Origin: a bacterium
Lineage (GTDB): Bacteria; NPL-UPA2; JAGMAN01
Direction of reading: 5' to 3'
DNA length: 6,259 bases
NCBI GenBank assembly: GCA_023130215.1
Contig: JAGMAN010000003.1
Coordinates: 1-6,259 of the forward strand
In this document: piece by piece, positions 3,393-5,679 of the stretch
How positions within the stretch are numbered: position 1 is the stretch's first letter
Layout: each line of letters starts with the position of its first letter
Notes under the pieces: generated by a model
What the model was told of the DNA's origin: nothing
Database searches by the model: none
What the model saw: the letters and a program-made list of their open reading frames with translations, nothing else
Position numbers and translations under genes: made by a program

Positions 3393-4202
3393 TTATTGTT
3401 CCTCCAGCACGGTAACATCTCCACCCACAAGTCGCTTTATGAAGCCACTATCCAGGCGAACCAGGAGAGCTCCATCCGAATCTATGTCAGTTGCCTGCCC
3501 TTCTATTATCTCACCTTGGAAGGAGACTCTAATCTGCCTTTCCAATGTGGTTGATAGCTCGCGCCAACGATTAGCCACCTTTTCAAACTGCCTATCCTTA
3601 AGAAGAAGACAATATTCCTCCAGGGTCCTTAAAATCTCCTGAAAGAGGTGAAGGCGAGAAACTTCTTTCCCCATCTCCTCTTTAAGGGAAGTAGCTCGCT
3701 TTCTGAGTTCCTCAGGGAACCTTTCTCTATCTACATTAACATTTATCCCTATACCAACAACAACGAATTTAACCAGGCCCACCTCAGCCGTCATTTCCGT
3801 TAATATCCCTCCTGCCTTTCGTTCTCTAATGAGAAGGTCATTCGGCCACTTAATTAAGACTGGCAACTGCGTCTCCTTCCTTATCGCCTCAGCCACAGCT
3901 ACAGCACATGCTAATAAGACCCTTCCCATCTGGGAAGGCGCAGTGGATGGATGAAGAATAACCGAAGCCCAGATTCCTTCCCCTGGAGGAGAAAACCAGT
4001 CTCTGCCCATCCTACCTTTCCCGGCCGTCTGCTCCTCAGCTAAGACAACCGTCCCTTCTTCCGCTCCCCCTTGAGCCAGCTCATGAGCCACCGTTTGGGT
4101 GGATTTAGTTTCCCGGAAACAATAGACCTCTCTGCCAATAACATTAGTTCCCAGCCCAGCCTTAATTTCATCTGGAACAAGAAAATTCGCTTCGCCCCTC
4201 AT
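3393..4202 (-). CDS. birA: Biotin--[acetyl-CoA-carboxylase] ligase BirA, monofunctional (no DNA-binding domain)
   Basis: BirA makes biotinyl-5'-AMP and attaches biotin to the carrier lysine of carboxylases. Numbering from the GTG at 4205, visible motifs are TKSTQ (33-37), the biotinyl-AMP loop AGKGRMGRDW (61-70), KWPNDLL (119-125) with the biotin-contacting lysine, AGGILTE (131-137), GIGINVN (151-157) and an SH3-like C-terminal domain (about 222-268). The N-terminal helix-turn-helix of bifunctional BirA repressors is missing, although linker-like residues (VPDEIKAGL, 10-18) remain; there is no room for more because nadC ends here. Two starts fit: GTG at 4205 and ATG at 4202. I prefer ATG, which overlaps the nadC stop as TGATG with GGAG 8 nt upstream. 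It therefore probably does not repress biotin genes directly. The stop abuts coaX with no spacing. Confidence 0.94.
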   Translation of the reverse strand: MRGEANFLVPDEIKAGLGTNVIGREVYCFRETKSTQTVAHELAQGGAEEGTVVLAEEQTAGKGRMGRDWFSPPGEGIWASVILHPSTAPSQMGRVLLACAVAVAEAIRKETQLPVLIKWPNDLLIRERKAGGILTEMTAEVGLVKFVVVGIGINVNVDRERFPEELRKRATSLKEEMGKEVSRLHLFQEILRTLEEYCLLLKDRQFEKVANRWRELSTTLERQIRVSFQGEIIEGQATDIDSDGALLVRLDSGFIKRLVGGDVTVLEEQ

Positions 4203-5137
4203 CACAATATCTCCAAACTTATGTCTAAAGCTTTGGCCGAATGGGTAAGAGCTCCAACTGAAATCACATTTACCCCAGTTCTGGCCACTTCTTTCACATT
4301 GTCTAAGCTGATGCCACCAGAGGCTTCCAATAACGGCCGACGATCGATAGTCAACGGTCGATAGAATCTATAAGCCGTGGACTGCCTGCCCCGTTGCGAA
4401 GCTATTCGGGGTAGGCCGTGGACTATCTTAACTGCCTTTTTCATCTGCCCGATGGTCATATTATCCAGCATAATTATATCTGCTCCGGCTTGAGCCGCCT
4501 GGCTAACCTCCATTAAATTTCCTGTCTCCACCTCAATCTTCATTTTAGGGGGAAGTCTTTTCCTCACTGTCTCTACCAATCTTCTTATAGTAATAGATCG
4601 GCGAAGACGAATATGATTATCCTTTACCAGAACTCCATCATAAAGTCCCATTCGATGATTATATCCTCCTCCTATCCCGACCGCATATTTCTCCAGCGCT
4701 CTCCAGCCTGGAGTGGTCTTTCGGGTGTCCATGATTTGGACCTTATATGGTCGGACTGCCGCTACAAATTTGGAAGTCAAGGTAGCTATTCCCGATAGAC
4801 GCTGAAGGAAATTGAGGGCAGTTCGCTCTCCCATCAATATGCTCCTCACCCGCCCAGCGACCTCAGCTATAACTGCGCCCTTTTTGGCCTTATCTCCATC
4901 CCTGACCTTTGCTCTGAACTGCGTCCTTCTTTGCTTTTTAGTTTCACCTTCAACCATCTTAAAAACTAATTGCGCTATCTTCAATCCAGCAATTATCCCT
5001 TCTTCCCTGGCAATGATAACTCCCTTTGCCATAACCCCGGCAGGGATAGTTGACTCCGTGGTTATATCACCCACCCCGATATCCTCAGTTAGAGCCATCT
5101 CCACCAACGGCTTTATGCTATCTAATTTAAGATTCAC
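4202..5137 (-). CDS. nadC: Nicotinate-nucleotide pyrophosphorylase (quinolinate phosphoribosyltransferase) NadC, with an in-frame insert
   Basis: NadC converts quinolinate and PRPP to nicotinate mononucleotide, CO2 and pyrophosphate in de novo NAD synthesis. Motifs in order: EDIGVGDITTE (18-28), GERTALNFLQRLSGIAT (103-119), DTRKTTPGWRALEKYAV (137-153), GGGYNHRMGLYDGVLVKDNH (156-175), IEVETGNL (201-208), LDNM (224-227), EASGGI (271-276) and SVGALTHS (293-300). Catalytic-site Arg, Lys and His residues appear intact. At 311 residues it is longer than the usual 270-300, because about 26 extra residues (240-265) sit between the KKAVKIV helix and the RRPLLEASGGI strand; they are encoded by repeat-like DNA. 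This site should be a surface loop, so activity may survive. The start is GTG at 5137 with AGGGG 5 nt upstream. The stop overlaps the birA start. No nadA or nadB is in the window. It is the first gene of the compact operon. Confidence 0.95.
   Translation of the reverse strand: MNLKLDSIKPLVEMALTEDIGVGDITTESTIPAGVMAKGVIIAREEGIIAGLKIAQLVFKMVEGETKKQRRTQFRAKVRDGDKAKKGAVIAEVAGRVRSILMGERTALNFLQRLSGIATLTSKFVAAVRPYKVQIMDTRKTTPGWRALEKYAVGIGGGYNHRMGLYDGVLVKDNHIRLRRSITIRRLVETVRKRLPPKMKIEVETGNLMEVSQAAQAGADIIMLDNMTIGQMKKAVKIVHGLPRIASQRGRQSTAYRFYRPLTIDRRPLLEASGGISLDNVKEVARTGVNVISVGALTHSAKALDISLEIL
4343..4420 (-). repeat. Palindromic repeat-like insert inside nadC (about 78 bp, in frame)
   Basis: The segment encodes the extra residues 240-265 of NadC and is dense in repeats. 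GCCGTGGACT occurs twice (4374-4383 and 4415-4424). Between the copies lies a 10-bp stem, 4384-4393 pairing with 4407-4416 with one G-T wobble, closing a 13-nt loop. CGATCGATAG (4341-4350) is followed by CGGTCGATAG (4355-4364). The encoded peptide (rich in R, Y, T and S) has no counterpart in the NadC family as I know it. It resembles small palindromic elements that insert in frame in genes, as described for Rickettsia, but that comparison is by behaviour, not by sequence. The boundaries are estimated from the protein family. Confidence 0.65.
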
Positions 5138-5147: not shown

Positions 5148-5220
5148 ACATCTTGCGTAACTGGAGACTATCTGGAAGTTAGACATCCCCCTGCCCTCTA
5201 TATAACAGCTCGGCGCAGCC

Positions 5221-5250
5221 TCTACGAGTCAGGTGCAGTGACTCGATAGA
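5221..5250. repeat. Imperfect palindrome in the brnA-nadC intergenic region
   Basis: CGAGTCA (5225-5231) pairs perfectly with TGACTCG (5239-5245) around a 7-nt loop. TCTA (5221-5224) and TAGA (5247-5250) extend it to 11 pairs with one bulged A at 5246. No T-tract follows on the minus strand, so it is not a standard terminator. It lies 85 nt or more upstream of nadC and 11 nt past the brnA stop. It could be an operator, an mRNA-stabilising hairpin or a mobile palindromic repeat; the last is favoured because part of it recurs at 5625-5638. Confidence 0.6.
5228..5241. repeat. Direct repeat copy 1 (14 bp)
   Basis: GTCAGGTGCAGTGA is identical to the copy at 5625-5638, in the same orientation. Here it forms the core of the palindrome between brnA and nadC. 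The two copies bracket the antitoxin gene and toxin remnant. Confidence 0.75.
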
Positions 5251-5260
5251 ATCAGATATT

Positions 5261-5488
5261 TTAAGATAAGGCTTTTTCTATGCGTTCAGCCACCCAGACT
5301 TTGATGACAGATTGTCGAGGTACACCCAAACGTTTTGCTTCTTTATCTAATGAATGAATTATCCACAGAGGAAAATCTACATTAACTCTTTTCTGTTCTT
5401 GCTCAGACCTTCTGGCTTTTGACACATCCAGATATTTAGAAATATCCTTACCATCATCAAACCTCTTGTCAAACTCGTTAGCTTTCAT
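5261..5488 (-). CDS. brnA: BrnA/CopG-like ribbon-helix-helix antitoxin, apparently orphaned
   Basis: The 75-residue protein has a charged N-terminus (KANEFDKRFDDGKDISKYLD, 2-21) and a C-terminal ribbon-helix-helix. The latter consists of strand KRVNVDFP (33-40), a first helix at about 41-53, and GVPRQSVIKVWVAERI (55-70) as turn and second helix. This matches BrnA/CopG-type antitoxins, which bind and neutralise a BrnT ribonuclease toxin and repress their own operon. The ATG at 5488 is chosen over a longer frame to 5530 because AGGAGGAGG (5498-5506) precedes it and because the upstream codons belong to the toxin remnant in another frame. The start overlaps the stop of the brnT remnant by 11 nt, the expected toxin-first coupled order. 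Only the last third of the toxin remains, so the antitoxin probably has no functional partner here. It may persist as a repressor or as protection against related toxins. Confidence 0.82.
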   Translation of the reverse strand: MKANEFDKRFDDGKDISKYLDVSKARRSEQEQKRVNVDFPLWIIHSLDKEAKRLGVPRQSVIKVWVAERIEKALS

Positions 5489-5573
5489 AAATATCAACCT
5501 CCTCCTTTCTAGATCGTCGCACCGAAACAATCCTTATCTTTTCACCCCGAAAGGATATTTTTCGTGATTTTAC
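5478..5573 (-). pseudogene. brnT: 3' remnant of a BrnT-type toxin gene
   Basis: Reading the minus strand toward the stop at 5478-5480 gives a C-terminal peptide with SFRGEKIRIVSVRRS followed by RKEEVDIYES. This matches the end of BrnT toxins, where a strand-like RG-x-x-IRIIS is followed by an R-rich helix and a terminal YE. BrnT proteins are about 90 residues; only about 25-32 are present here. The frame stays open upstream to a TAA at 5643-5645, but the codons from about 5575 to 5642 encode the hairpin repeat and not toxin sequence. No start codon with a good ribosome-binding site is present. The N-terminal part with the catalytic residues is absent from the other frames I checked nearby. 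It overlaps the brnA start by 11 nt. The clearly homologous part starts near 5552; the exact breakpoint is uncertain. Confidence 0.7.
5498..5506 (-). promoter_or_regulatory. Ribosome-binding site deciding the brnA start
   Basis: AGGAGGAGG ends 9 nt before the ATG at 5488. It lies inside the brnT remnant, so antitoxin translation was originally placed within the toxin's 3' end. It argues for the 75-residue form over the 89-residue frame. Confidence 0.75.
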
Positions 5574-5588
5574 GCTGGAACTCACCCG

Positions 5589-5625
5589 CCCCCATGCTTT
5601 GCTTCGCAAAGCGAAGCTATGGGGG
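5589..5625. repeat. Hairpin repeat with two alternative stem-loops at the brnT breakpoint
   Basis: CCCCCAT (5589-5595) pairs with ATGGGGG (5619-5625). Inside are two overlapping perfect palindromes: GCTTTGC-TTC-GCAAAGC (5596-5612) and GCTTCGC-AAA-GCGAAGC (5601-5617). Only one can form at a time. No T-run follows on the minus strand, so it is a poor intrinsic terminator for the acetyltransferase gene. It sits where brnT coding similarity ends. Its GCGAAGCTAT word (5611-5620) is also in the nadC insert (4396-4405), in the same orientation. Confidence 0.75.
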
Positions 5626-5638
5626 TCAGGTGCAGTGA
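5625..5638. repeat. Direct repeat copy 2 (14 bp)
   Basis: GTCAGGTGCAGTGA is identical to 5228-5241. It starts on the last G of the hairpin at 5589-5625. The G-rich run followed by GTCAGGT resembles repeats I associate with REP-type (Y1 transposase) elements; no such transposase is in the window, so this link is tentative. Confidence 0.7.
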
Positions 5639-5641
5639 ATG

Positions 5642-5650
5642 GTTAGTCTC
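5642..5650. repeat. Inverted repeat, left arm, flanking the GNAT gene
   Basis: GTTAGTCTC is the reverse complement of GAGACTAAC at 6190-6198. The arms enclose the acetyltransferase gene with about 30 nt on each side. At 9 bp this could be chance. Confidence 0.35.
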
Positions 5651-5679
5651 CCTAATTAAATCTTTTGTGGAAAGAAAGC

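Follow-up and report, generated by a model that had tools for sequence, protein, structure and literature searches.

An in-frame segment of NadC probably derived from a hairpin nested in heptanucleotide repeats

The nadC gene (carboxylating nicotinate-nucleotide diphosphorylase) of a 6,259-nt stretch of DNA, here called the window, contains an extra in-frame segment that is probably the remnant of a non-coding repeat, made up of a small hairpin within heptanucleotide tandem repeats, which came to lie in nadC before the genus diverged. The first-pass annotation of the window had reported about 26 extra NadC residues, and their presence was confirmed (Table 1). TIGR00078 matched the protein with 307.6 bits (cut-off 198.4), the match being split into two stretches either side of the insert; the best PDB relative, 1x1o, aligned to residues 14–241 and then to 267–310, with nothing between; and when 29 other NadC proteins were aligned with it, the insert was common to the two congeners (L003 and L004). 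The helix-to-strand connection at this site was short in 25 of the 29, one protein (L008) stopped short of the site and another (L025) had a long loop of unrelated sequence, so that similar residues were found in 0 of the 27 non-congeneric proteins aligned. A phage NadC that we considered as a candidate proved to be an ordinary NadC with about 42% identity.

Table 1 Coordinates of the NadC segment, its parts and dispersed repeats in the same genus
Feature	Position	Strand	Description
nadC	4202–5137	−	Carboxylating nicotinate-nucleotide diphosphorylase; intact, 311 aa
Extra NadC segment	4343–4420	−	Residues 240–265, about 26 residues; none such outside the genus
Degenerate heptanucleotide repeats	4341–4383	−	3' of the hairpin on the coding strand; include the CGATCGATAG-like pair and one direct-repeat copy
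Hairpin core	4384–4416	.	10-bp stem 4384–4393/4407–4416 (one G.T), 13-nt loop 4394–4406; coding strand GCCTACCCCGAATAGCTTCGCAACGGGGCAGGC
Short heptad-like flank	4416–4427	−	5' of the hairpin; coding strand GATAGTCCACGG
Dispersed-repeat loci, G000	L268:8793; L272:4972; L274:1123, 6617 and 6744; L279:4945		
Element loci, G002	L105 and L120		

An AlphaFold2 model of NadC based on 58 sequences had a mean pLDDT of 92.2 and a pTM of 0.91, and Foldseek identified it as a NadC fold (1x1o, TM-score 0.95 by target length). A contig scan for near relatives of the genus returned none and added depth for this model. The insert, with pLDDT values of 57–75, was predicted to form a loop between helix 229–240 and strand 269–273; such barrels carry their helix-to-strand loops on the side away from the active site. 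This predicted low-confidence loop, the open frame and the similar segments of the congeners support the earlier proposal that repeat-like DNA is tolerated in frame in NadC. A second NadC indel lies near window position 4600, after KDNHIRLRR: the genome of the window (G000) lacks a loop there (GDGKQGGKRLVGEKQG, about 16 residues) that is found in both congeners and partly in G003, which belongs to a different family of the order; its DNA has no clear repeat.

The direct repeat, the 10-bp stem around a 13-nt loop and the tandem pair described in the first-pass annotation are all present in the insert DNA, but they do not make up the single palindromic element that had been envisaged: the insert is a composite in which a hairpin lies between degenerate heptanucleotide repeats. 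The direct repeat spans 13 nt (TAAGCCGTGGACT/TAGGCCGTGGACT at 4371–4383 and 4412–4424), and the ACGATCGATAG/ACGGTCGATAG pair has a spacing of 14 nt, or two heptads, and therefore belongs to the heptad pattern. That period had been missed, as had an imperfect 12-nt terminal inverted repeat, longer than the features first noted, in which 4346–4357 pairs with 4416–4427. In the congener G002, the counterpart of the 4416–4427 flank is GATAGTCCATAGTCCA, two clear heptads, and the coding strand at the insert reads GATAGTCCATAGTCCACC-CCGAATAGCTTCGCAAGGGG-GCAGGCAGTCCATAGTCCATGGATTCTATCAACCATCTACTATCGACCATCGACCG. AGTCCA occurs on both sides of the hairpin, where a target-site duplication would be sought, but recurs in the heptads anyway. 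Overall, the 78–84 bp of insert DNA consist of two or three smaller hairpins plus heptads rather than one long stem-loop. The plus strand at 4336–4430 folded at −39.0 kcal/mol compared with −27.4 kcal/mol for dinucleotide shuffles (z = −3.4, 0 of 200), whereas the coding-strand fold was weaker (z = −1.4 against shuffles), and the hairpin was weaker in the congeners than in G000. Lag-7 self-similarity of the 59-nt tail that follows the hairpin was 0.42 in G000 (P = 0.005) and 0.62 and 0.52 in the congeners, values that 0 of 1,000 shuffles reached; taken alone, the G000 insert has weak heptad periodicity. Tandem Repeats Finder reported nothing in the window because the heptads are too degenerate, and Rfam had no match at the insert.

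In both congeners examined (G001 and G002), the insert sits at the same codon and is equally long, in NadC proteins that are 76–79% identical, and the NadC of G003 has 18 insert residues fewer. Because it is common to all three species of the genus examined, the insert is old, and the comparison indicates that it most likely entered nadC before these species split. The prospect that several genera would share conserved residues here, which had been named as a finding against a repeat origin, did not materialize: the insert was absent outside the genus. The phylum was represented by nine genomes, all drafts, with G000 about 90% complete. Within the genus, the conserved residues of the insert are limited to an 11-residue core, PRIASQ(R/G)GRQS, found in all three species. 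The corresponding 11 hairpin-core codons (4379–4411) are identical in DNA in G001 and differ by one base in G002. Between G000 and G001, identity was 33/33 bases in the core, 31/51 in the other insert positions and 81% in the rest of the gene (core versus rest of insert, p about 1e-5). The core is also the longest run of identical codons between these two genomes; given a 70% same-codon rate at conserved residues, 11 of 11 unchanged codons have a chance of about 0.02, for one short run that was singled out post hoc. These patterns suggest, though not strongly, that the core is under constraint or is younger than the rest of the insert.

The first-pass annotation had called for a search for further copies of the 78-bp DNA in the genome and had regarded their absence as evidence against its reading, and for the NadC sequence that absence is what we found: BLAST and pattern searches detected no second copy in G000, where repeat counts refer to a sample of 20 contigs that, together with the window, total 267 kb, around 26% of the genome. 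The same types of search, extended to 386 genomes, ruled out that the NadC sequence belongs to a multi-copy family. Among the 386 genomes, the only exact matches to the core pattern were in the nadC genes of the three congeners, and matches with two mismatches elsewhere were no more frequent than in a reversed control. The single copy points to a relict rather than a current repeat family. Heptads could likewise be rejected as a current repeat of G000, which had no clear array and one chance-like pattern hit only. With neither a second copy nor a clear array in G000, we infer the source from relatives. Heptad patterns gave 17 hits in G003, 32 in G004 and few in G001 and G002, with arrays of the TAGACCA/TAGTCCA/TAGACTA type in G003 and G004; the arrays in these two genomes, and some in G001 and G002, lie mostly outside long open frames. 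Several G004 arrays enclose a GC-rich hairpin (for example, CAGTCCACCTGTCTGCGTGCAACCGCACAGGCAGGCAGTTCACAGTCC) and end GGCAGGCAGT, with an order of parts that matches the NadC insert, and a search with the insert peptide found those arrays (best E 2.5e-4), several of them with stops. The usual TAG-bearing heptads would place an in-frame stop in the nadC register, where the nadC units have TCT or TTG instead. A Y1 transposase was rejected as the mover, since PF01797 had no match in the roughly 90% complete G000; the counts in G002, G001, G003 and G004 were 0, 1, 2 and 6, respectively. Attempts to link the insert to a transposase, to defined ends or to a target duplication were unsuccessful.

We propose that heptad-plus-hairpin repeats of the type that is intergenic elsewhere in the order were the source of the segment, and that candidate routes of entry would be recombination or slippage seeded by the heptads, or a transposase acting on the hairpins. 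The insert may have been retained because it adds a net number of bases divisible by three and its units lack an in-frame stop, and because the barrel loop in which it falls connects a helix to a strand, apart from the conserved catalytic motifs. The open frame in three species makes translation of the loop as part of NadC likely, and the insert is probably nearly neutral in its effect on the enzyme, although the greater conservation of the core than of the remaining insert counts against a purely neutral relict. The distribution among the sequences would fit a gain of the insert rather than its loss elsewhere.

The conserved core peptide could instead mark a lineage-specific functional loop, such as an oligomer or partner contact, that was built by ordinary mutation and small indels and resembles a repeat by coincidence, and the long unrelated loop of L025 indicates that the site accepts other kinds of insertion. 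We regard such an origin as unlikely in view of the heptad period, which exceeds chance in all three species, the match of the insert peptide to intergenic heptad arrays of G004 and the divergence of the non-core insert, which is faster than that of the rest of the gene. Alternatively, the repeat origin could be right and the hairpin core still be selected as DNA or RNA, for instance as a recognition or regulatory hairpin in the nadC message. The uninterrupted run of identical codons described above is in line with such selection, but that one short run was picked out after the fact, the coding strand does not fold unusually well, the congeners have a weaker hairpin and Rfam offers no match, making this distinctly improbable.

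A short, in-frame segment with a hairpin might also be present in the gene and yet be bypassed or excised, either during translation or ahead of it; we consider this very improbable, as the frame is open in three species and the heptad units lack in-frame stops, as expected if they are translated. An assembly or binning artefact, conceivable insofar as all the genomes are drafts, can be practically dismissed, because the insert occurs in an open frame, with diverged sequence, in three separate genomes. An old relict of hairpin-and-heptad repeat DNA remains our preferred explanation of the NadC segment.

The window contains other palindromes, at 5190–5260 and 5570–5655, with ends CTAAC..CACTGCACCTGACC ... 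GGCGGGTGAGTT..GCGTT that look like integron attC sites. We rejected kinship between the NadC hairpin and the palindrome at 5575–5645: the two are 80% identical over 20 nt, the palindrome is attC-like with its own conserved ends, and the likeness was treated as chance. Similar attC-like palindromes occur on L271 and L272 of G000 and on L222, L224, L226 and L228 of G004, where they are spaced every 0.4–0.9 kb, as in gene-cassette arrays. Those of the window flank brnA and a GNAT gene, which are typical cassette cargo. The BrnA antitoxin gene lies at 5261–5530, and upstream of it the minus strand at 5490–5585 holds only a BrnT remnant (PF04365 positions 60–77 of 77, E 0.02) that ends at the attC-like palindrome; from these matches, the BrnT toxin gene appears truncated.

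The earlier suggestion of an invasion resembling that by Rickettsia palindromic elements (RPEs) held in part: the NadC DNA is single-copy, whereas other short palindromes do lie in frame, in murG of G000 and in an open reading frame of its congener G002. Both nadC and murG would be expected to be needed by the organism. Self-comparison of the 20 contigs revealed a 64-bp palindromic repeat on L269 (G000:C61), with copies at 14451–14514 and 17267–17330 that are 92% identical and 2.8 kb apart. One is in frame in murG (TIGR01133, 299 bits, cut-off 250), where, by comparison with PDB 3s2u, it lengthens a helix-to-strand connection by around 20 residues; the other lies outside a gene, just upstream of where a mannoside-phosphorylase-like ORF probably starts. 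This palindrome is unrelated to the NadC insert. A 25-bp piece of it ends contig C48 (L267:1–25). Compared with PDB structures, this MurG carries about 17 further residues around LARLSRNPFQPRRHFHGVLFHTLIHEQN, a second extra stretch whose DNA is able to fold into a hairpin (−20 kcal/mol over 75 nt).

G002 contains two copies of a sharp-ended element of about 90–110 bp, one of them in frame in a 595-aa dehydrogenase-like ORF. A dispersed repeat family related to this element, with ends like TACGGTGAAACACGGTGAAGCAGT and GCAGTACTGC, is mostly intergenic in G000. In the CoA-enzyme activase of G006 (L252/L233), the linker that joins its two ATPase domains holds around nine TCAGACC-like heptads in frame, and the orthologue in G008 (L253) has a GC-rich palindrome (−34.5 kcal/mol) in the corresponding linker. 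As the segments of the G002 ORF and the activases lie in poorly conserved regions, murG is the firmest parallel to NadC. The chances are about even that, in this poorly known phylum, protein genes have been invaded in frame time and again by several unrelated short repeats, comprising heptad arrays and no fewer than three palindromes, at helix-to-strand loops and domain linkers (NadC, MurG, the dehydrogenase-like ORF and the activase linker), which would make it a further such lineage beside Rickettsia and Wolbachia.

RPEs (Ogata et al.) and their Wolbachia equivalents are short hairpin-forming DNAs of about 100–150 bp, multi-copy in their genome, that lie in frame in conserved genes and are tolerated (PMC10969869, PMC2229807, PMC3767692). 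Like them, the NadC insert is in frame in a conserved protein gene, with orthologues that have it at the same site; unlike them, it measures 78–84 bp, is a single-copy heptad-plus-hairpin composite and occurs in an unrelated lineage. The many-copy trait is absent for the NadC insert, whereas the murG palindrome has a copy outside a gene. The NadC insert is thus RPE-like in effect and not an RPE, given its size, its make-up and its lack of a repeat family of its own. Heptanucleotide tandem repeats have been described as TAACTGA in Beggiatoaceae (PMC4679880), where their presence in coding sequence was argued to be limited by stop codons, and as GGGAATC and GGGGATT (PMC4692102). The arrays considered here share seven-base units, short length, a mostly intergenic location in the order and stop-limited occurrence in coding sequence, and similar arrays occur in the lineage (G003 and G004) but none clearly in G000; they differ in their TAGACCA/TAGTCCA/TCGACCA type units, which are degenerate and hairpin-interrupted. 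MITEs such as ERIC and the Yersinia repeat are small, non-autonomous hairpin DNAs, mostly intergenic with some in-frame gene fusions (PMC2229807), from which the NadC insert differs in having no transposase, defined ends or target duplication tied to it, in a genome where no Y1 transposase was found.

Heptad repeats are thus already known, and what is less usual is their combination with a hairpin and the lineage in which it occurs. In-frame repeat invasion of conserved genes is best documented in Rickettsia and Wolbachia; an uncultured lineage in which heptads are among the sources and at least two repeat families take part makes a general route of loop gain testable, and NadC and MurG lend themselves to easy assays with and without the extra segment. 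If the reading that involves multiple repeats is true, repeat invasion would be a regular source of protein insertions in this lineage.
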